Below the pieces are notes generated by a model that was given only the letters and a program-made list of their open reading frames with translations, was not told the origin of the DNA and did not search any database. Both the position numbers and the translations under genes were made by a program. Shown piece after piece: positions 3,897 to 15,720 of a DNA stretch of 15,720 bases. Positions within the stretch are counted from its first letter, which is position 1. Every line of letters begins with the position of its first letter. The DNA is taken from contig JAQVAO010000004.1 of assembly GCA_028690755.1 (NCBI GenBank), positions 1-15,720 on the forward strand, in the 5' to 3' direction. The DNA is from Patescibacteria group bacterium (GTDB lineage Bacteria > Patescibacteriota > UBA1384 > XYA2-FULL-43-10 > CAINNR01).

Positions 3897-4505
3897 CTAA
3901 CTCTTTTTGACCTTGCCCCAATCTTTCATGTAAAAAACGCTCTCCAAAACTAGATCGTAGCCAAGAATCTCCTCCGGTTTAAACCAGATTGAAATTTCTC
4001 TTTCCGCCTCTTCAACAGAACCAGAAGCATGAACCAGAGATTGAATCGCTCTTCCGGTTTCATCGGACATCTCATAAGAATCAGAGCTGTAATCGCCACG
4101 GATCGAACCAATATCAGCCGTCAAGGGATTAGTCGAGCCGGCAGTTTTCCTGCCAAGGGCAACGGCGTGAGGACCTTCCCAAATCATCGCCAAAACCGGT
4201 CGGTCACAAAGACTATCCATCAAAAGCTCTCTGGTTCTTTTCCCATATTCAATTGGTGTCAAGAGATCTTTGACACCCTTATCTTTGTAGTTGTTGTAGG
4301 TGTTGGTGCCCGAAGAGATGTACCAAGCCTCATCGTCAGCGTAGTGTTCACCTATTAGTTTGGCATCAGGAGCAAGCATTTTACAAGCTATCATCTTTAA
4401 GCCCCGCCTCTCAAACTTGTTAATCAATTCGCCCATCAAGTGACGCTGGATTGATTCCGGCTTAATGATAATTAAGGTTCTCTCTGGTTTGAATTTTCTT
4501 TCCAT
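3897..4505 (-). CDS. ndk: Nucleoside diphosphate kinase with a large internal insertion
   Basis: Transfers the gamma-phosphate of a nucleoside triphosphate to a nucleoside diphosphate through a phospho-histidine. IIIKPESIQR (12-21) is the opening strand and Lys. RPVLAMIWEG (102-111), GRKTAGSTNP (118-127) and IGSIRGDY (132-139) are the nucleotide site, and LVHASGSVEEAE (157-168) carries the catalytic His159. The product is 202 residues against about 140-150 for usual bacterial enzymes; the excess lies at about 58-100 and in the C-terminal tail. Two conserved positions next to the active His differ from the usual N-x-x-H-(G/A)-S-D: Ser156 and Gly162. GGAG precedes the ATG. It sits 14 bases after the M16 peptidase gene. 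Confidence 0.9.
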   Translation of the reverse strand: MERKFKPERTLIIIKPESIQRHLMGELINKFERRGLKMIACKMLAPDAKLIGEHYADDEAWYISSGTNTYNNYKDKGVKDLLTPIEYGKRTRELLMDSLCDRPVLAMIWEGPHAVALGRKTAGSTNPLTADIGSIRGDYSSDSYEMSDETGRAIQSLVHASGSVEEAEREISIWFKPEEILGYDLVLESVFYMKDWGKVKKS

Positions 4506-4519
4506 CTATCTCCTTCAAT

Positions 4520-5788
4520 TTAATTATTAAGTAATTTTTCAATTTTGGGACGCATTTTTTCCTTTGCGATCACTCCGACTGACATATTATCAAAATCAAA
4601 ATATTTATCTGCAACCGCCAGAACATCTACCAATTTTATTTTAGCAATTTTTTCCATCGTCTCGGAGATCAGCTCTATTTTTTTCTGATAGAAAAATCTA
4701 GTTAAATAATAGTCACCAAGCTCATAAGAATCTTCAAAAGAAAGTTTCATCTGACCGAGAAGAAAAGTTTTAGCCTTCTTGAGCTCATCTTCAGTAATAT
4801 CAATCCGCGCTCTTTTATATTCACCGATTATCGCTTCGAGGGCCTGAGTGGCTTTTTCATCGGCAACACCAGCCACAGTCATTAGAGATCCTGAGTCAGA
4901 ACCAGAGGACTGAAAACTCCGGACATCATAGGCCAATCCTTTTTTTTCACGAATTTCTGTAAACATTCTTGAGCTCATATTGCCACCCAATATAACCATA
5001 AGAAGCTTGACGACCAATCGATCAGAACTTGAGTAATCCGGACCCAAAAAACCAACCGCTAAATTTGTTTGCTGGCTATCTTTCGCAAAAAATTCCAGTC
5101 TTTTGGGTTTATATTTGAACTGCTCAACAGCGCTAGATCTGGCGTTTTTAAAAATAAATTTGTCCTCGATTAATTTGACTAAACCCTCCTCCGATCGACC
5201 GGAGAAATTTCCGGCAAGACAGATGTAGGAATTTTCAGCAAAATAATGTTTATTATAAAAATCCAGCACATCTTGTCGCTTAATACCTGATATTGTCTTA
5301 ACCGTCCCGCCGGTATAGCGAGCGAGCGGGGTCCCAGAAAACAGAGCTTGGTCGAAAACCTGAAAAATGTAGCTCGAAGGTATATCGGAGCGCATTTTTA
5401 TCTCCTCGATTACCACCTTTTTCTCTTTTTCGATCTCCGATTCAGCAAACAAACTTTCGGTCAGCATGTCAGAAAAAATATCAACAACCTTGTCCAAATG
5501 CTCCGAAGCAGCTTTGATATGATAATTTGTATATTCTTCAGTTGGGTGGGCATTGACGTCAGCACCTATGGCATCAATCTCTTTCGCAATATCTAGCGAG
5601 CTAGGGCGGCGCTTTGTCCCATCAAAAATTAGATGTTCCAAAAAATGAGTCATGCCTATTTGGCTCTCGTCTTCATAGCGAGAACCAGCACCGACATTAA
5701 CAATCAGGCTCACCGTCTCTGTTCCTTCGACAGGTACAAGAATCAATTTCAGACCATTTTTTATTTTTTTAACAACCGGATTATGCAT
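4520..5788 (-). CDS. M16-family zinc metallopeptidase (processing-peptidase/PqqL-like)
   Basis: Zinc endopeptidase of the pitrilysin family. The inverted zinc motif HFLEH is at 48-52 (His48, Glu51, His52), and the third ligand is Glu128 in VVIEEI, at the expected 76-residue distance. The second domain carries the usual inactive-half features, including GGNMSSRMFTEIREKKGLAYDV. The length of 422 residues matches single-chain bacterial M16B proteins, which usually dimerise. No signal peptide is present, so it is probably cytoplasmic; the substrate is unknown. It heads the run M16-ndk-glycosyltransferase. No Shine-Dalgarno sequence is seen; on the minus strand TAGAAT ends seven bases before the ATG, so the message may be leaderless. 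Confidence 0.88.
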   Translation of the reverse strand: MHNPVVKKIKNGLKLILVPVEGTETVSLIVNVGAGSRYEDESQIGMTHFLEHLIFDGTKRRPSSLDIAKEIDAIGADVNAHPTEEYTNYHIKAASEHLDKVVDIFSDMLTESLFAESEIEKEKKVVIEEIKMRSDIPSSYIFQVFDQALFSGTPLARYTGGTVKTISGIKRQDVLDFYNKHYFAENSYICLAGNFSGRSEEGLVKLIEDKFIFKNARSSAVEQFKYKPKRLEFFAKDSQQTNLAVGFLGPDYSSSDRLVVKLLMVILGGNMSSRMFTEIREKKGLAYDVRSFQSSGSDSGSLMTVAGVADEKATQALEAIIGEYKRARIDITEDELKKAKTFLLGQMKLSFEDSYELGDYYLTRFFYQKKIELISETMEKIAKIKLVDVLAVADKYFDFDNMSVGVIAKEKMRPKIEKLLNN

Positions 5789-5835: not shown

Positions 5836-5911
5836 TGGTACCCTCGGCAGGAATTGAACCTGCGACCTTCTGGACCGCAACCAGACGCTCTATCCACTGA
5901 GCTACGAGGGC
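5836..5911 (-). tRNA. tRNA-Arg, anticodon GCG
   Basis: A complete cloverleaf on the minus strand. The acceptor GCCCTCG pairs with CGAGGGT (first pair G-U), the D arm begins GCTCAGTGGATAGAGC, the anticodon stem TCTGG/CCAGA encloses TTGCGGT, and the T arm GCAGG-TTCAATT-CCTGC is regular. Discriminator A and an encoded CCA follow. The anticodon GCG reads CGC and CGU. Most bacteria use ACG (inosine-modified) for this box, so the G34 form is notable. Confidence 0.95.
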
Positions 5912-5943
5912 AAAACTAGAAACTTAAATCTTCTATAGATTGT

Positions 5944-6441
5944 TCAGAACTTGATCCAGCGATTAATCGTATCGGTGATATCCTCTCCCCGCTCCTCTTC
6001 TTCTGGCAAATGTTTAGATAAAAAAAGTTTTATCTGCTCAACATTTTCCTCTTCAACTGGCATTTCAACTGGCAGGCTGAAGCGCTTTGCCTGTTCAAAT
6101 CGGAGCATAATTCTCTGCTCATACGGGAAAATCCAAAATGATTTAAATTGATCGAAAGTATAAACTCGGCTATCTATTGTCACGCCTTGATCATAAATAG
6201 CGTAATTCTTTTTGCTGCCCTGTGATCTTGATTGGCTATACATAGCAAATGCGGCAGCGACGACCACGGCAGCGGCCAGCCACAGCTTCATCCAAATAAA
6301 CGCTCCGACCAGAATAACTGCGATTAATATTAAATAAGTAAACCAGCTACTATTCTTTTTGCCACTCTGAAAATCAGTCGCTTGCCAGTAAAACACCGGC
6401 TTGTCAGCAGGAGTAATTTTTGCTTCGTCTTTCTTAGCCAT
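5944..6441 (-). CDS. Two-helix membrane protein of unknown function
   Basis: No named family is recognised. The 165-residue protein has a Lys-rich cytoplasmic N-terminus. A conserved-looking FYWQATDF (17-24) precedes two transmembrane helices (about 33-51 and 53-68). A soluble domain of about 95 residues follows, with alternating strands (YAIYDQGVTID, YTFDQFKSFWIF, RIMLRF) and a final acidic helix ending DTINRWIKF. The topology (helical hairpin followed by a beta domain) resembles membrane PH-like/DUF proteins common in CPR genomes. GGAGGG lies about four bases before the ATG. It lies between tRNA genes on the same strand. Confidence 0.7.
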   Translation of the reverse strand: MAKKDEAKITPADKPVFYWQATDFQSGKKNSSWFTYLILIAVILVGAFIWMKLWLAAAVVVAAAFAMYSQSRSQGSKKNYAIYDQGVTIDSRVYTFDQFKSFWIFPYEQRIMLRFEQAKRFSLPVEMPVEEENVEQIKLFLSKHLPEEEERGEDITDTINRWIKF

Positions 6442-6488
6442 TTCCCTCCTTAAATTATTGTGGACCGCGTAATAATTAACTTAAACAA

Positions 6489-6593
6489 TGGCGGAAGGTG
6501 TGAGATTCGGTCACATATATTCGCCTGCTGGCGAATTTCGCGACCCCGCCTCGCCCCCAGCCGGGGCTGCGACTTTCGAATCCGCTATCTTCC
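6489..6593 (-). other. tRNA-Ser-like palindromic element (decayed tRNA copy or tRNA mimic)
   Basis: Read on the minus strand, the element ends in a near copy of the 3' end of the adjacent tRNA-Ser(GCU): the last 21 bases including GCCA differ at one position. Its 5' end GGAAGAT pairs with ACCTTCC at six of seven positions, like an acceptor stem. TGTGA-CCGAATC-TCACA forms a five-pair T-arm-like hairpin, but the loop lacks the usual TTC. The middle is not a normal tRNA: a perfect ATTCGCC/GGCGAAT hairpin (6518-6535) and a GC-rich stem with CCCCG/CGGGG pairs (about 6536-6576). No regular D arm or anticodon arm is seen. It may be a degenerate gene, a dispersed palindromic repeat inserted into a tRNA copy, or a structured RNA using tRNA-like ends. 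Open reading frames here are spurious. Confidence 0.5.
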
Positions 6594-6630
6594 AGAAATC
6601 ACCAGCCAATTCTTGGCTGCTGGTTTCTGG
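6592..6630. repeat. 18-bp near-perfect inverted repeat joining tRNA-Ser to the tRNA-like element
   Basis: CCAGAAATCACCAGCCAA (6592-6609) and TTGGCTGCTGGTTTCTGG (6613-6630) pair with only two mismatches across a three-base loop. The right arm includes the CCA end of tRNA-Ser(GCU) and the left arm touches the first bases of the tRNA-like element. It could be a processing site or a terminator-like hairpin without T-tract. Confidence 0.6.
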
Positions 6631-6720
6631 CGGAAGGTGTGGGATTCGAACCCACGTGGCGGCTTTTAAACCACCGACGGTTTAGCAAACCGTTCCCTTA
6701 AGCCACTCGGGCAACCTTCC
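6628..6720 (-). tRNA. tRNA-Ser, anticodon GCT
   Basis: A class II tRNA on the minus strand. The acceptor GGAAGGT pairs with ACCTTCC, the anticodon stem ACGGT/ACCGT encloses TTGCTAA, and a long variable arm follows (from CGGTGGTTT to AAAGCCGCC). The T arm is GTGGG-TTCGAAT-CCCAC, with discriminator G and an encoded CCA. It reads AGC and AGU. It lies 10 bases after tRNA-Ser(TGA) on the same transcript. Confidence 0.95.
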
Positions 6721-6730
6721 AAAAAATGTC

Positions 6731-6820
6731 TGGCGGAGAGGGCGAGATTCGAACTCGCGAGACCATTGCTGGCCTTCCGGTTTTCAAGACCGGTGCACTC
6801 AACCACTATGCGACCTCTCC
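6731..6820 (-). tRNA. tRNA-Ser, anticodon TGA
   Basis: A class II tRNA on the minus strand. The acceptor GGAGAGG pairs with CCTCTCC, the anticodon stem CCGGT/ACCGG encloses CTTGAAA, a long variable arm follows, the T arm is GCGAG-TTCGAAT-CTCGC, and discriminator G is followed by an encoded CCA. It reads UCA and other UCN codons. It is the first gene after the promoter at 6857-6885. Confidence 0.95.
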
Positions 6821-10092: not shown

Positions 10093-11460
10093 ATGTTCAA
10101 AAAATATTTGAAAGTCGCAGGAACTAGCTTACTGGCAATTGTCATGGCTTTGACTCTCACTGGCTGTGGCGAAAAACAAACTCCAGAAGCAAAAGAGATG
10201 ATTGTTTGGGGCTTTGTTGACGAGGATGTTTTTAAGCCAATAATTAAGGACTTCAACAAAAAAAACAAAATTAAGGTCACATATGTAAAGAAAAAACTGG
10301 ATTCAAATTATGAAAACGACGCGCTGAATTCGATAATGTCTGGGCAGGGGCCAGATGTTTGGGCGATACCGAATGATTGGGTTTACAGACACAAAGAAAA
10401 ACTCACACCCCTTCCAGACGCTGTGGCAAAATCAAATAAATTGAATGTTTCCGAAACCTTTGCTGATTTCGTCCAAAAAGATAACATCTTTGATGGAAAA
10501 GTCTATGGTCTTACCCCAGGCGTTGATATGTTGCAAATTTATTACAACCCCAACCTGTTTAATGAAGCAACACAAAGAGCCTCGACAGCCCTGAAATCGC
10601 AGACCGATGCCAGAAAAGAGATAACCGGAATTTTAGGTCAGTTTCCTATTACGTGGGGCGAGTTTAACAAAATATTGCCATGGTTGACGGTAAAAAATGG
10701 CAACTTCATCACAACCAGTGCTGTCGCCATGGGAACCAGTAATAATATATCTTACCCTGAGGATATACTTTCACTTCTGATGCTTCAAAACCAAACGAAA
10801 ATGGTTTCTGATGACCTAGCACAGACAAGTTTTAATTTACCAGTTAAAAATTCCGCCGGCGAAGAGATATATTCTGGAACAAATGCACTTGATTTTTATG
10901 CCAGTTATGCCAATCCAGCGAGCCCTAATTATACTTGGAATCAGTCAATGCCAAATGATGTACAGGCTTTTATCGAGGGTAAGGTAGCAATGATATTTAA
11001 TTATGGCGATCTGGCCGGATATCTTAACCAGGCATATCCAAATTTTAAATACACACGGGCACTTATTCCTCAAATCGGAGACTTTAATCCAATCACTGAT
11101 TATGCTAGCTATACCACCTATGTCGTTCCTGAGATATCACCAACCCAGTCAGATGCTTGGAATTTTATTGCCCAGATGTCGATAAAAAGTTATGGCACCT
11201 ATAATTCTGCGACGATGACACTTGCTCCAAACAAGAACACCGAAGAGAAAGTTCTCGCTAACCGCCGCAGCAGGAAAGGACCAACAAAAACCGAGATAGT
11301 CTCCGGCACTACTTGGAACAAAGGGCGATACCCCGTTGAGCTTGATAATTTATTCAAAGACGCTATTTCTCGTGTCAACACCGGCTCACAAAGCCCACAG
11401 GCCTCACTCGACACTGCCGCAACCAAATTAACCGAACTTTTGAGAAAAGAGGGCTGGTAA
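10093..11460 (+). CDS. ABC-type sugar-binding lipoprotein (extracellular solute-binding family 1)
   Basis: Exported lipoprotein that would bind a solute at the outer face of the membrane. Lys3 and Lys4, a hydrophobic stretch (8-21) and the lipobox LTGC give lipid attachment at Cys25. The mature part follows the family-1 pattern: IVWGFVDEDVFKPIIKDFNK (37-56), GQGPDVWAIPNDW (84-96), a GKVYGL segment, and later AFIEGKVAMIFNYGDLAGYL followed by APNKN. The length of 455 residues is usual. GGAGG lies four bases before the ATG. No ABC permease or ATPase gene is adjacent; an exported protease and pilin genes follow instead. Either the transporter is elsewhere or the protein serves the surface assembly. 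The ligand is unknown. Confidence 0.85.
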   Translation: MFKKYLKVAGTSLLAIVMALTLTGCGEKQTPEAKEMIVWGFVDEDVFKPIIKDFNKKNKIKVTYVKKKLDSNYENDALNSIMSGQGPDVWAIPNDWVYRHKEKLTPLPDAVAKSNKLNVSETFADFVQKDNIFDGKVYGLTPGVDMLQIYYNPNLFNEATQRASTALKSQTDARKEITGILGQFPITWGEFNKILPWLTVKNGNFITTSAVAMGTSNNISYPEDILSLLMLQNQTKMVSDDLAQTSFNLPVKNSAGEEIYSGTNALDFYASYANPASPNYTWNQSMPNDVQAFIEGKVAMIFNYGDLAGYLNQAYPNFKYTRALIPQIGDFNPITDYASYTTYVVPEISPTQSDAWNFIAQMSIKSYGTYNSATMTLAPNKNTEEKVLANRRSRKGPTKTEIVSGTTWNKGRYPVELDNLFKDAISRVNTGSQSPQASLDTAATKLTELLRKEGW

Positions 11461-11468
11461 ATTATATA
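11440..11468 (+). promoter_or_regulatory. Possible promoter of the C39-like protease gene
   Basis: TTGAGA (11440-11445), 17 bases, then TATATA (11463-11468), inside and just after the end of the lipoprotein gene. The ATG follows at 11479 with no Shine-Dalgarno sequence, so the leader would be only a few bases. Confidence 0.35.
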
Positions 11469-11478
11469 TATCTGACAA

Positions 11479-12177
11479 ATGCAAATCGTAAAAAGATTCT
11501 TGAAAAACAAAAAACTAGTTGTTGTAGTTGTGATTATCGCGCCGTTAGTTCTGGCCGCAGCCACAATGCTACTGTCTAGCAGTTTCAGATACTCAGCTGA
11601 TGCTGGCTGCACCACAGAAGTGCCACTTTATAAGCAGACCGCCTCTCCCTGGGGTGATGACGCTTACGGATACAAAGATGAGGCCCAAAGAGAACCGGCA
11701 ACTATTGCCAGCTCCGGCTGTGGTCCAACTTCCCTAGCGATGGTTTTAGCATACTTAATGAAAAATCCTGCCATGAAGCCAGATGCAGCGGCAAGATATT
11801 GCCTTCAAAATAATTATCGTCCCCCGGGCGGAGGCACTGATCCAGCATGTTTTAATGCTTACGCCAGAGAAAAAGGCTTCAGGGCCGAGCAGATAGACGC
11901 CAACAGGGCGAAACAGCTACTTAGACAGAGTATACCAATAATTATGGTGGTGAAAAATTGCCAAATCGGAGCTGATGGAAGGGGCAGATACACTGGTTCA
12001 AGAGACGATGTTGGCGGGCACTATATAGTTTTAAAAAAGATACGTCAAGCAATGGTAAATGGCCAGGAAAAAACTATTGTAGAAATAAACGATCCAAATA
12101 AAAATAATCTCTGGGATTATCCTGAAAATATTTTCGGATCATGTGCAAAAAGAGGCTATTGGTACATACATAGATAA
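11479..12177 (+). CDS. Membrane-anchored C39-like (papain-fold) cysteine protease
   Basis: Predicted extracytoplasmic cysteine peptidase of the Peptidase_C39_2 type. An N-terminal Lys/Arg-rich start and one hydrophobic helix (13-32) make a signal anchor. The mature domain starts with VPLYKQTASPWGDDAYG (48-64); SSGCGPTSLAMVLAYL (78-93) holds the likely catalytic Cys81, GGHYIVLKKI (179-188) the His181, and VEINDPN (201-207) the third residue, Asp205. Further Cys residues at 44, 108, 124, 161 and 222 suggest disulfides outside the cell. Unlike C39 domains of bacteriocin exporters it is not fused to an ABC transporter. It sits directly before pilin genes, so processing of surface or pilin proteins, or cell-wall cleavage, is possible but unproven. 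Confidence 0.8.
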   Translation: MQIVKRFLKNKKLVVVVVIIAPLVLAAATMLLSSSFRYSADAGCTTEVPLYKQTASPWGDDAYGYKDEAQREPATIASSGCGPTSLAMVLAYLMKNPAMKPDAAARYCLQNNYRPPGGGTDPACFNAYAREKGFRAEQIDANRAKQLLRQSIPIIMVVKNCQIGADGRGRYTGSRDDVGGHYIVLKKIRQAMVNGQEKTIVEINDPNKNNLWDYPENIFGSCAKRGYWYIHR

Positions 12178-12201
12178 AAGCAAATGCAGGAGAAACACAA
12201 A

Positions 12202-12747
12202 ATGTTGGTCAGGTTTGCAATTGGTATATTTGCGATTTTACCGATTCTTGTTTTGATTAATGTAGTGGAAACGAGTGCCTCAAGCATTGATGATATTGGT
12301 ACCTGTGTAAATTATGACACCGGCATAGACACTGCTTCCGACCAAGACAGAGCAGCTATCGCCGCAGCTGATGAAAATCAGGGAGGCGATGGCGAAGGGG
12401 CTGACGACGAAGGTGGTGGCGATGATGAAGCAACCAGCCAGTCTGAAATCGGGGTTGGTGTAACAATACCCAGCACCGACCCAAATTACCACATCGAATC
12501 AGGCAGAAACTATTCCTATGATAGGTATATAAAGGGCATATATGCTTTTTCGATAAAAGTCGCTGTTGCTCTTTGCACTCTAATGGTGATATATGCTGGC
12601 TATAAGTATCTAACTAGCAAAGGTGAAACCAGCATGATAAACGAGGCAAAAGATATTCTTTTCAGCACCTTGATGGGCGCGGCTTTACTAATGCTAGTTT
12701 TACTAATTGGGAACATCTCCGGATTTAATACTGGAGGCTGGCTATAA
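12202..12747 (+). CDS. VirB2/TrbC-like pilin with acidic Gly-rich extracellular segment
   Basis: A signal peptide (FAIGIFAILPILVLINVV, cleavage near ETSAS) precedes an acidic, Gly/Asp/Glu-rich low-complexity region (about residues 58-78). After it comes the paired-helix core of VirB2/TrbC pilins: helix about 115-132, the YAGYKYLTSKGETS turn (131-144), NEAKDI, then helix 153-170. GGAG at 12189-12192 lies nine bases before the ATG at 12202, so that start is preferred; an earlier ATG at 12184 would add six residues but has no ribosome binding site. The stop overlaps the next start by one base (TAATG). It probably sits in the cytoplasmic membrane with the acidic part outside. Confidence 0.75.
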   Translation: MLVRFAIGIFAILPILVLINVVETSASSIDDIGTCVNYDTGIDTASDQDRAAIAAADENQGGDGEGADDEGGGDDEATSQSEIGVGVTIPSTDPNYHIESGRNYSYDRYIKGIYAFSIKVAVALCTLMVIYAGYKYLTSKGETSMINEAKDILFSTLMGAALLMLVLLIGNISGFNTGGWL

Positions 12748-13982
12748 TGAGAAAAATATCAAGCAGATTTATTACTGACTCTATAATCGTGACACTTGGA
12801 CTACTGGTTTTATTCATTACCAGTCTTATCTCCTATCGAGTTTGGTTTGTCGGTGCAGACACTGTGAATATTCCCTTACTTAATATCAGCTATCTATCGC
12901 CACAATTTCAGAGCGAAGACGACGTCCCGGATTGGAGAATCGTCTCAAATCGATACACAAACTACCAATTTTTGGAGGTTTATAATGCCAGTGACATTGA
13001 GGAGGCGTTAGGCAATAGCACCAGTGATTATCCGGCTTATTTGGTCGGCTATTATATCTCTGATCTCGGAGAAAAGGGACAGAGAAGAATGGCCATTGTA
13101 CCTCTACCGGATTTCGATTATCTTATCAGTTCGTCGGCAAAATATGGAGATATATACAGTTATACAGCAAACCATGAAAATGCCGCTTATAAGTTGCTGA
13201 AGAAAGTTCAACAAAGAGCAAAAGGAAGCAATTATGAAAATCAACTAAATCAAGCAGTAAAAAGTTACGAGCGGGCGATTGCCTTCTCACAGTCAAGTGT
13301 TCGCTGCCCCGATGATCACACGATTTATTATAAGGATGCCGATTTGTTAGGTATTGAAATCGAAGATCCTGACGTCAGTCTGTCAAATGCGTTTCCACCA
13401 AATCCAGATGTGAGATCGCTTGCTATTTCAATTAATAAAGATCATGTCTATGAAAAACCAGCAAGCAACTCCCTGGCATTATCAATCTTGATCGCCGCTA
13501 AGGGAGAGGCAAATTATATTGGTAACTCGAGTTGTGCCAGCAAAATCAGTGAGGCAATTATTAATTATCAAAATCAAATCCAACCCAAAACTGGAAAAGA
13601 GCCACTGACGCTTGAGGCTCCGACAGAAATCGTGAATGGTTCATCGGTAGAAGTTAATTTTTCGCTTGATAAAATAAGACTACCAATTTCCAAACCCGAC
13701 TTTGTAGAAACCCTTCAGTTGACTTTCAATGATTCCTTAGTCTGTGAAATTTCTTTTTCCGACTCTGATTCTGGAGGCGCATTGCAACAAGGGAGCTGCT
13801 CTTGGGACACAAACAACTTAGCAGGAACATTTTACTGGGATAAAAATACCGGTTCCGAAAATCAAAAAAACAGTACAACTAAAAATGGCTTTAAGGTTAT
13901 TAAGCTCAAAGCTTTCTCTAGCGATTCAAATAATTCAAAAGCAACTGTTTCTGAACAAATGGTTTCTGTTATAAAAGACTAA
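12747..13982 (+). CDS. Membrane-anchored surface protein of unknown function
   Basis: No family is recognised. Residues 1-10 are basic, 12-30 form one transmembrane helix, and the remaining 380 or so residues should lie outside. A mixed domain (about 40-140) is followed by a helical stretch (about 142-182) and a segment of about 190-275. The C-terminal part (about 287-410) is rich in Ser, Asn and alternating hydrophobics (LTLEAPTEIVNGSSVEVNF, LQLTFNDSLVCEISF, FKVIKLKAF), suggesting an Ig-like beta sandwich. Cys333 and Cys351 could bond, as could Cys187 and Cys263. Its ATG overlaps the stop of the upstream pilin, so the two are translationally coupled and likely act together. Confidence 0.65.
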   Translation: MRKISSRFITDSIIVTLGLLVLFITSLISYRVWFVGADTVNIPLLNISYLSPQFQSEDDVPDWRIVSNRYTNYQFLEVYNASDIEEALGNSTSDYPAYLVGYYISDLGEKGQRRMAIVPLPDFDYLISSSAKYGDIYSYTANHENAAYKLLKKVQQRAKGSNYENQLNQAVKSYERAIAFSQSSVRCPDDHTIYYKDADLLGIEIEDPDVSLSNAFPPNPDVRSLAISINKDHVYEKPASNSLALSILIAAKGEANYIGNSSCASKISEAIINYQNQIQPKTGKEPLTLEAPTEIVNGSSVEVNFSLDKIRLPISKPDFVETLQLTFNDSLVCEISFSDSDSGGALQQGSCSWDTNNLAGTFYWDKNTGSENQKNSTTKNGFKVIKLKAFSSDSNNSKATVSEQMVSVIKD

Positions 13983-14002
13983 TTTCTGGATAATTGGATA
14001 TT

Positions 14003-15244
14003 ATGGCTAAAAAGACAACTACAAAAAATTTCTTGTCACTTATAACTTTGCTATCATTTATATTTCTATTGTTTTGTTTTCTTAGCCAAATTGTATTCAA
14101 ACCACACAGAGCAATAGCAGCTGAGCTATTATCAAATGGCACACATTTAGACATTTGGTATCCGGATAGAGTTAATCTTAATAGCCAATACTCAATCAGA
14201 GCAAAAACTTCCGGTATTGTCGCAAACAGGGTATCGATCTATTTAATTGTTCGAGGCGCCGAAGAAGGACAGTACGCTAACATTTCAAAAACAAATTTCT
14301 GTGCGGCAGTAGCAGCAAATAATCCCGACTACGAACTTCACGGCCAAGTCACTTGTAATGCTGAGGGAGTATGCGACGGTAGAATTTCGAATACAATTTC
14401 TCAAGCAGGACATCATCGCGTTATTGCCGCCGCAATGAGAGGGACTGAACAATGCGCTTCTGGTGGGGCTAACGCAAATGATGTTGTTATTACCCTGAAT
14501 TATAATGGCATTATTCAGGGTGTCGCTTCTGGTGGAGGTGACGACGGAGGGGGCGGTGGTGGAACTGGTGGAGGTGACGACGGAGGGGGCGGTGGTGGAA
14601 CTGGTGGAGGCAGTGATACCGGCGGAAGTGTCGACCCACCAGCAGGTTTTGGTATAGCAAATTTCCAACATTCTACAATCGCAACATTGAGAGCACTGGT
14701 TGGAAGAATCGGCTCATTTTCACTTATGCTTTTGGGGTTCCTGGCAGTTGTCGGAATAGTTATCGCCGGGATGAAATATATCTCATCTGGAGGAGATGAG
14801 AAAAAAGCGGAGACAGCTAAAAAGGCCTTGCTTTTCACGGTCTATGGAATAATAATTACTGTAGTTTCAGTAACATTAATCAATACAACGATAGCCGAGG
14901 TTGGCAGACTGATAACCGCCAGAACCCCAACCGCAACAGAAGACGACAATGTCGACACTGTTTTAGAAAGAATCAACACCTGGGGCGGACCAGACGCGAC
15001 AATATTAAATGTAATCGGCCAGGAAAACGGCATGGTTTGGCGCTTTATCCGACTCGCTGCCTTATACGCAGAGCTTATAGCGTTTTTTTACATCCTATAC
15101 GCCAGTTTTATTTATATGACTTCTTATGGCGATGAAAGTAAGGCGGAAACAGCGAAAAAAACACTGATCTGGGCTTTGGTCGGACTGGCGGTAATTATCT
15201 CGGCAACAACGATATTAAATATGTTTGGTGAAGTGCTTGCTTAA
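14003..15244 (+). CDS. Exported protein with two VirB2/TrbC-like pilin domains
   Basis: Numbering is from the ATG at 14003; a TTG at 13994 would add three residues and neither start has a strong ribosome binding site. A signal peptide (about 9-40, ending near AIAAE) leads to an exported beta-rich domain (about 45-170, with Cys residues at 100, 118, 124 and 151). A Gly/Asp linker (about 177-210) follows. Then come two related paired-helix units: one at about 236-296 with IAGMKYISSGGDEKKAETAKK, one at about 347-407 with YASFIYMTSYGDESKAETAKK. The shared (S/T)SxGDExKAETAKK turn shows that the halves arose by duplication. The result would be a four-helix membrane anchor carrying a surface domain, perhaps a minor pilin or scaffold. 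Confidence 0.75.
   Translation: MAKKTTTKNFLSLITLLSFIFLLFCFLSQIVFKPHRAIAAELLSNGTHLDIWYPDRVNLNSQYSIRAKTSGIVANRVSIYLIVRGAEEGQYANISKTNFCAAVAANNPDYELHGQVTCNAEGVCDGRISNTISQAGHHRVIAAAMRGTEQCASGGANANDVVITLNYNGIIQGVASGGGDDGGGGGGTGGGDDGGGGGGTGGGSDTGGSVDPPAGFGIANFQHSTIATLRALVGRIGSFSLMLLGFLAVVGIVIAGMKYISSGGDEKKAETAKKALLFTVYGIIITVVSVTLINTTIAEVGRLITARTPTATEDDNVDTVLERINTWGGPDATILNVIGQENGMVWRFIRLAALYAELIAFFYILYASFIYMTSYGDESKAETAKKTLIWALVGLAVIISATTILNMFGEVLA
14531..14610 (+). repeat. 36-bp tandem repeat encoding the Gly/Asp linker
   Basis: Two identical 36-base units (14531-14566 and 14567-14602) and a partial third (to 14610) encode GGGDDGGGGGGT repeats. Because the unit is a multiple of three, copy changes would alter linker length without a frameshift. 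Confidence 0.85.
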
Positions 15245-15276
15245 TTTTTGATCGCTTGTGGTCGATCGATCAAAAA
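15245..15276. repeat. 10-bp perfect inverted repeat just before the pilin promoter
   Basis: TTTTTGATCG (15245-15254) and CGATCAAAAA (15267-15276) pair perfectly around 12 bases. It begins right after the stop codon of the double-pilin gene and ends three bases before the next -35. No T-tract follows, so it may be an operator or a weak terminator. Confidence 0.5.
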
Positions 15277-15279
15277 CAC

Positions 15280-15309
15280 TTGACAAGTCCAAGACACAAA
15301 AACTATGAT
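15280..15309 (+). promoter_or_regulatory. Strong promoter of the short pilin gene
   Basis: A perfect TTGACA (15280-15285), 18 bases, then TATGAT (15304-15309). With the consensus ribosome binding site AAGGAGG (15342-15348) four bases before the ATG, this is the best expression signal in the pilin region and points to abundant product. Confidence 0.65.
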
Positions 15310-15352
15310 ATGTTTAGAAACAATAAAAAATAAATTTTGTTAAGGAGGATTA

Positions 15353-15676
15353 ATGAATTGGACAGAAAAAGCCTATGCGGTAACCCAAGGTGCATGGAGT
15401 GACATTTTTACCATCAACGACTCAACCCCAACTGATACGTCGTGGCAAGCAATAGCGAACACGATTTTGACTTGGCTGTTGGCCCTAGCAGGTCTGCTCG
15501 CCGTAGCCTATTTGATATATTCTGGCATTCTTTATATCACAGCTGCCGGAAACCCAGATCAAGCTAAAAAAGGCCAACAAGGAGTGATAAACGCTATTAT
15601 CGGCATCGTCATTATCTCTGCAGTCTGGCTAATAATCGGTTTGGCTTTCAACTTAGGAGAAACACTCGGCACCTAA
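15353..15676 (+). CDS. Short VirB2/TrbC-like pilin, likely major subunit
   Basis: A 107-residue protein consisting almost only of the paired-helix pilin core. It has an N-terminal polar part (1-30), helix about 34-60, a loop YITAAGNPDQAKKGQQG (61-77) typical of the pilin turn, and helix about 78-100, ending in NLGETLGT. No classical signal peptide is present, unlike the two larger pilin-domain proteins nearby; the first helix may itself direct insertion. A near-consensus promoter and ribosome binding site of its own suggest high expression, as expected of a filament's main subunit. A membrane role other than a pilus cannot be excluded. Confidence 0.75.
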   Translation: MNWTEKAYAVTQGAWSDIFTINDSTPTDTSWQAIANTILTWLLALAGLLAVAYLIYSGILYITAAGNPDQAKKGQQGVINAIIGIVIISAVWLIIGLAFNLGETLGT

Positions 15677-15720
15677 TCCTTTGTCACTCTCCAGACCTCG
15701 GCCGTAGTAGTTGTACCTTG

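Follow-up and report, generated by a model that had tools for sequence, protein, structure and literature searches.

Six tightly packed plus-strand genes of a Patescibacteria group bacterium encode three type IV secretion system (T4SS) pilins together with a solute-binding protein (SBP), a C39-type cysteine peptidase and a further exported protein. The genes occupy positions 10093..15676 of a 15,720-nucleotide stretch (hereafter the window), which is one complete contig (JAQVAO010000004.1, here C20) of a 568-kb, 95-contig, 82%-complete assembly (GCA_028690755.1). The assignment of the pilins to a Patescibacterial T4SS module is strongly supported. On balance we favour the reading that the array specifies a pilus for host contact with glycan-binding parts. 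Because its gene precedes the pilin genes, as it does in most relatives examined, and no importer gene lies on the contig, the SBP probably belongs to the pilus machinery as a component that has so far gone unnoticed.

The array is real and agrees with the initial annotation in its six exported or membrane proteins and tight spacing. Successive genes are separated by 18, 6, −1, 20 and 108 bp, and each product either carries an N-terminal hydrophobic stretch or is as a whole a two-helix membrane protein. A chance origin of the array is excluded because the arrangement is conserved in relatives. The head gene (10093..11460, +) encodes an SBP_bac_8 (MalE-type) protein with a lipobox-like LTGC motif (PF13416, 63.9 bits) and is followed by a membrane-anchored C39-type peptidase (11479..12177, +; PF13529, Peptidase_C39_2, 38 bits). 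The first pilin (12184..12747, +) has an N-terminal hydrophobic stretch and an acidic linker ahead of its hairpin; its gene starts at 12184, and position 12202, where it had been placed at first, is an internal Met. Next come an exported, N-terminally anchored protein (12747..13982, +) with no Pfam family over cut-off and an immunoglobulin (Ig)-like C-terminal region in a weak model, a double-hairpin pilin (14003..15244, +; longest start TTG at 13994), and a bare pilin (15353..15676, +) that is a candidate major subunit. No permease, ATPase or channel gene of the secretion or import kind was found among the window genes by Pfam search and naming by eye, in line with the initial annotation. Four genes, those at 2778, 4520 and 7850 and the tRNAs of the 5836-6820 region, were named by eye only.

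The pilin assignment rests mainly on the T4SS_pilin family PF18895, which has a cut-off of 26.6 bits. In the search with window proteins, the double pilin matches in two stretches (58.3 bits) and the bare pilin scores 49.8 bits, and the 12184 pilin lies just below the cut-off at 25.6 bits. A search of the genome puts every one of the four hairpins above it, at 28.7 to 50.2 bits, with the 12184 pilin at 28.7. The double pilin also passes the NCBIfam Mbov_0395 pilin-like conjugal transfer family (40.7 against a cut-off of 40 bits), and the bare pilin stays below it (32.7 bits). The VirB2/TrbC family PF04956 matches the protein read from 13994 below its cut-off (16.9 against 27.9 bits), with no match listed for the 12184 or 15353 proteins. 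Paired helices of this kind might instead be unrelated membrane anchors of surface proteins. Such a view could draw on the TrbC/VirB2 Pfam matches, most of which lie under the cut-off, and on a comparison of our pilin profile with solved structures, which gave no VirB2 pilin by sequence and one chance-level match. We nevertheless consider it highly improbable: PF18895 is matched over its cut-off, the conjugal pilin-like family of NCBIfam is matched as well, tandem bare hairpin genes occur in nearly every array, and the pilin of one relative (L117) passes both the PF18895 and the TrbC/VirB2 cut-offs. The initial annotation had proposed more than one type of VirB2-like filament gene, with a pilin core that is bare, preceded by an acidic linker or duplicated in three proteins, and this is borne out here.

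The double pilin consists of a hydrophobic N-terminus, a predicted Ig-like region, a Gly-rich linker and two hairpins. Structure models of this protein and of the 12747 protein, used for fold class only, retrieved mainly Ig-like sandwiches in Foldseek, with E values of about 1e-4 to 2e-3. In four relatives of the same family (L144, L145, L146 and L148) the two proteins form a single polypeptide of 694-785 residues, and a separate gene encodes the second hairpin in other families of the order. By these comparisons, therefore, the double pilin of the window is a lineage-specific product of two adjoining pilin genes that fused, and the exported part has been split. The single polypeptide of the same-family relatives corrects the initial annotation, which lists six separate genes. 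The split is not an assembly slip, as five database homologues of 394-428 residues (P0041-P0045) and P0040, whose source is not shown, share it. A homologue search with a 779-residue fusion returned only itself. Among pilin loci, 24 of the relatives' 54 and 22 of the 73 named ones have a pilin with at least 100 residues before the hairpin, and by sequence other pilins carry extra domains too, with T4SS_pilin joined to Big_2 in P0047 and to Peptidase_C39_2 in P0013.

In relatives the last bare pilin follows a longer gap, with a median of 82 bp (n = 29) against 3 bp (n = 70). The corresponding 108-bp gap of the window holds a promoter-like site (11 of 12 positions) at 15280-15309, and the total of 19 such sites is near chance (shuffle mean 16.0, s.d. 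3.3). We take the bare last pilin as the probable major subunit because it is set off by this longer gap and by the promoter-like site within it.

Conservation of gene order among relatives had been set as a test by the initial annotation, and the order proved to be conserved. We labelled the genes of stretches around the SBP by phmmer and by a pilin profile built in this analysis. A same-strand pilin gene lies downstream of the SBP in 51 of 56 relatives' loci. The distance is at most 700 bp in 48 of them; it is 724 bp in the window, with the C39 gene in between, 736 bp in G037 and 1397 bp in G053. Three of the five remaining loci (G006, G009 and G026) have 146-405 bases of contig left, the SBP of G057 leads into PrgI-x-VirB4, and the fifth, G059, is weighed below. 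One further genome, G027, was left out of the 56 for having only an SBP fragment; pilins follow there too. As a control, we took the 608 other non-pilin genes in the relatives' loci that encode at least 100 residues: a pilin lies within 700 bp downstream of only 11, and two of these are the window's own C39 and 12747 genes. A second set of named loci, the best 80 of 110, shares at least 16 contigs with the relatives' set; the SBP precedes a pilin in 72 of the 80 (69 within 700 bp, 3 within 3 kb), and five run off the contig. The three misfits are L147, whose contig ends 405 bases on, L195 and L223. The linkage is seen in Berkelbacteria, Nealsonbacteria, Doudnabacteria, Portnoybacteria, Moranbacteria, Buchananbacteria, Kerfeldbacteria, Falkowbacteria, Uhrbacteria and Kuenenbacteria. 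The initial annotation had also predicted an associated sugar-binding-type protein, and the SBP fits that prediction in both sets of loci. We also observed long pilin arrays behind the SBP: L197 has 15 such genes and L199 has 11. For Patescibacterial pilin arrays, 2-11 genes are reported (PMC12102498).

The SBP itself is common among these bacteria. It matches in 57 of 61 genomes (this genome and 60 relatives), as a single copy in 54. An SBP alignment of 28 rows showed no usable pattern, and one of 10 rows was used in its place. The nearest named relatives of the protein come from an unclassified bacterium (60% identity) and from Berkelbacteria (55-56%), which makes the source organism a probable Berkelbacterium. 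A sequence search places sugar ATP-binding cassette (ABC) importer binding proteins among the closest solved structures. A lipobox-like pattern or a hydrophobic anchor is present in 53 of 54 full-length SBPs of relatives and in 75 of 78 named ones. In an even sample of 127 genomes from the phylum, the SBP is present in 100 at E up to 1e-10, and VirB4 in 116 at E up to 1e-100. These counts cover SBP and VirB4, not pilin neighbours. Both are found in 94 genomes and share a contig in 35, at a distance of up to 20 kb in 20 genomes and of up to 50 kb in 28. The SBP thus occurs widely in the phylum but not universally.

The family membership of the SBP and its closest solved structures would also suit an ordinary nutrient-binding subunit, serving an importer encoded elsewhere and standing before the pilins as part of a frozen gene order near the replication origin. 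Other neighbours are indeed often kept: upstream of the SBP lie HSP20, a nucleotidyl transferase, which we take to be GalU-like, and a comF-like gene (the last named by eye), and PilB is also retained, so that part of the order may be frozen. Permeases tell against an importer role. PF00528 permeases match in only 11 of the 61 genomes, always on contigs other than that of the array-linked SBP, and the other 50 genomes have no match; none was found in this assembly, nor on the array contig in any of the 61 genomes, some of these contigs being short. The importer search covered PF00528 only. PF13416 gave 37 matches in 36 genomes, of which 36 are the array-linked SBP. The remaining one, G017:C12, adjoins two PF00528 genes, as in an ordinary sugar importer, and is an internal control for how a transport SBP appears in these genomes. 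Moreover, the SBP stays with the pilins in differing surroundings, lying between VirB4 and the pilins in five genomes and before PrgI-VirB4 in G057. Ordinary sugar uptake was therefore put behind as a first choice on the permease and PF13416 evidence and is kept as a rival that we think unlikely. We prefer to see the SBP as a permease-less receptor or docking protein of the glycan-binding type.

Beyond the window, contig C86 of the same assembly overlaps the final 168 bases with 163 identities. C86 is probably a strain variant of the window's own place. The five mismatches in the 168 bases (window 15553-15720 against L008 1-168, overlapping contig ends) suggest that two strains are mixed in the assembly. 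The next gene on C86, where it is entire, encodes a convergent PilB-type ATPase (T2SSE), and its end overlaps that of the last pilin gene; in the window its inferred 3' end lies at 15673..15720 on the minus strand. A PilB gene is found downstream on the opposite strand in 30 of the 32 SBP loci where it was seen. Such a usual neighbour might suggest that the pilins form a type IV pilus driven by PilB. This is very improbable in our estimation. PilB is transcribed the opposite way in those 30 loci, VirB4 operons join the pilin array in several families, and in Pfam, at E up to 1, the pilins match T4SS_pilin and none of the families of type IV prepilin N-termini. On this Pfam result, type IV pilus pilins were rejected.

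The T4SS motor itself is found on contig C81 of the same assembly, which carries PrgI, a TrsD-like gene (weak TraC match) and a 708-residue VirB4 (PF19044, 109.3 bits), with PrgI/VirB3 beside VirB4. Family PF03135 has no match in this genome, its VirB4 falling under PF19044; VirB4 is matched in 58 of the 61 genomes. The initial annotation had pointed to genes past 15720 as the place to look for such components; the gene that follows directly is the convergent PilB, and VirB4, PrgI and the TrsD-like gene are present on C81. Elsewhere the array and the motor can be joined. VirB4 lies on the same strand and stretch as the SBP in 6 of the 56 relatives' loci and in 6 of the 80 named ones, in the order PrgI-x-VirB4-x-SBP-pilins in G020, G040 and G045 (and, slightly altered, in G048 and G051), SBP-PrgI-x-VirB4 in G057 and SBP-pilin-double pilin-PrgI-x-VirB4 in six of the named loci. 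The proposal of an undescribed surface apparatus was rejected, since T4SS pilins, PrgI and VirB4 were found and Patescibacterial arrays of this kind are already in print.

Several features around the motor genes stand apart from the array. On C81 the TrsD-like frame (L009 1706-2659), one open frame in relatives, is broken by an in-frame stop codon, for which a strain variant, an error or decay are all possible, and two 23S_rRNA_IVP (four-helix) genes (855-1202 and 4837-5187) flank PrgI-VirB4. Exported-looking proteins of about 1300-1820 residues follow VirB4 operons at L230 1-5473, L231 12224-16123, L232 7671-12086, L236 1-4866 and L142 1-4486, three of the five being cut by the end of the stretch. 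A second VirB4 (about 39-41% identical) occurs in G002:C18, G003:C13, G007:C53, G016:C18 and G022 (C39 and C42), and a nearby frame of about 425-445 residues contains a T4SS-pilin hairpin; this is perhaps a second T4SS type.

Among the loci examined, only this genome has a C39 gene in the slot between SBP and pilins, and no other locus has a C39 label there; a constant array member was therefore rejected. Seven of the 60 relatives have C39 homologues, which in four (G007, G020, G042 and G046) share a contig with VirB4 at a distance of no more than 9 kb; in G007 the homologue is the second gene after VirB4, and in G046 the match reaches E 4e-4 only. In the other three (G047, G054 and G055) they do not. 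The VirB4 operons of G001 and G002 contain a peptidase of the M23 type in its place. In S. epibionticum, peptidase and lysozyme homologues encoded downstream of virB4 are reported to be essential (PMC12102498). The associated protease of the initial annotation is thus no conserved part of the array, although C39-type peptidases do recur near VirB4. We suggest that the peptidase may have a cell-wall or pilus-processing role.

These observations are compatible with a mechanism in which VirB4 would extract the pilins from the membrane and the bare last pilin would form the major subunit. The ends of VirB2-type pilins both face outward in known pili, and the long pilins would for this reason display their N-terminal regions outward, as minor or tip subunits. 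The tethered SBP would bind glycan at the pilus base as a receptor or docking protein, the exported domains and the SBP would bind cell-surface glycans, and the peptidase would trim cell wall or pilins. A wider scenario, which we put forward tentatively, is that the T4SS took over the binding protein of a sugar importer in a large part of the Patescibacteria. It would serve an epibiosis pilus as a core receptor, recognising a host-surface glycan and either docking the pilus or feeding uptake through it, and interchangeable pilin-fused domains (Ig-like, peptidase or other) would tune which host is contacted.

A number of points weigh against a host-contact pilus that includes the SBP. In this genome the array and VirB4 lie on separate contigs, both of which end before any junction. 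A search with a relative's VirB6-like protein gave a match in each of the 5 other genomes tried and none in this 82%-complete assembly; the query has no Pfam match of its own, and the corresponding G005 gene matches TrbL/VirB6. The SBP of G059 is unlinked to pilins, and L195 (pilins on the other strand) and L223 (none), which come from Uhrbacteria and Falkowbacteria, have no same-strand pilin within 9 kb. In the phylum sample, 27 of 127 genomes have no SBP match and 6 have the SBP with no VirB4 match. Among full-length SBPs, only 26 of the relatives' 54 and 22 of the 78 named ones show the lipobox-like pattern. PF13416 fails to detect the SBP of 21 genomes and could miss other binding proteins. 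The structure models of the 12747 and double-pilin proteins are weak, with a mean predicted local distance difference test score (pLDDT) of 51.6 and 65.6. 

Two features lie elsewhere in the window. An AAT-family (PF03417) gene at 182-1111 falls in the first kilobase, which has a G+C content of 54.7% against 33-46% in the other kilobases and is possibly foreign. The nucleoside diphosphate kinase gene at 3897-4505 encodes 202 residues with PF00334 in two stretches, which suggests an insertion.

Arrays of VirB4, PrgI and VirB2-like pilins of Patescibacteria have been published, with T4SS genes essential in S. epibionticum, the sole Patescibacterium tested (PMC12102498, PMC10633639; for these and the papers cited below we refer to their accessible parts). 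The published arrays share with ours PF18895 pilins in tandem or one gene apart, VirB4 and PrgI in the genome, and peptidases near VirB4. They differ from the present locus, in which the contig has no VirB4, an SBP, which goes unmentioned in the published text consulted, is the constant head gene, pilins are fused to long exported regions and one pilin has a double hairpin. With sugar ABC-importer binding proteins (SBP_bac_8, MalE-type) the SBP shares its family, its fold as judged by sequence and a membrane tether, but it has no permease on the contig and is linked to T4SS pilins. The Gram-negative VirB2/VirB5 pilus has the same two-helix pilin core (weak TrbC match). VirB5 has been proposed to sit at its tip (PMC12857230), and a surface or tip part is proposed here too. 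In contrast, the exported domain is here fused to the pilin; no separate VirB5 turned up, and no search was aimed at one. PrgB-like adhesins of Gram-positive conjugation (PMC12857230) are likewise surface proteins proposed for cell contact in a monoderm T4SS, whereas here an SBP-type protein and pilin-borne domains would be involved, and PMC12102498 reports no PrgB in Patescibacteria.

The terms 'solute' and 'SBP' are absent from the main text of PMC12102498, as are 'extracellular solute', 'substrate-binding' and 'lipoprotein' from PMC10633639. The literature searched, excluding subscription papers and supplements, yielded no solute-binding protein tied to a Patescibacterial T4SS, and an earlier mention is possible. 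What is new is thus apparently an unremarked SBP-type partner, with cargo-bearing pilins, on a known T4SS module. The role of the T4SS in Saccharibacteria has been called completely unknown (PMC11665869), and what the Patescibacterial system does is an open question (PMC11665869, PMC12857230). The SBP head gene would be a machine part with a directly assayable ligand, so that what the T4SS touches or carries becomes testable, and pilins with built-in exported domains would offer a simple route to varied host contact.

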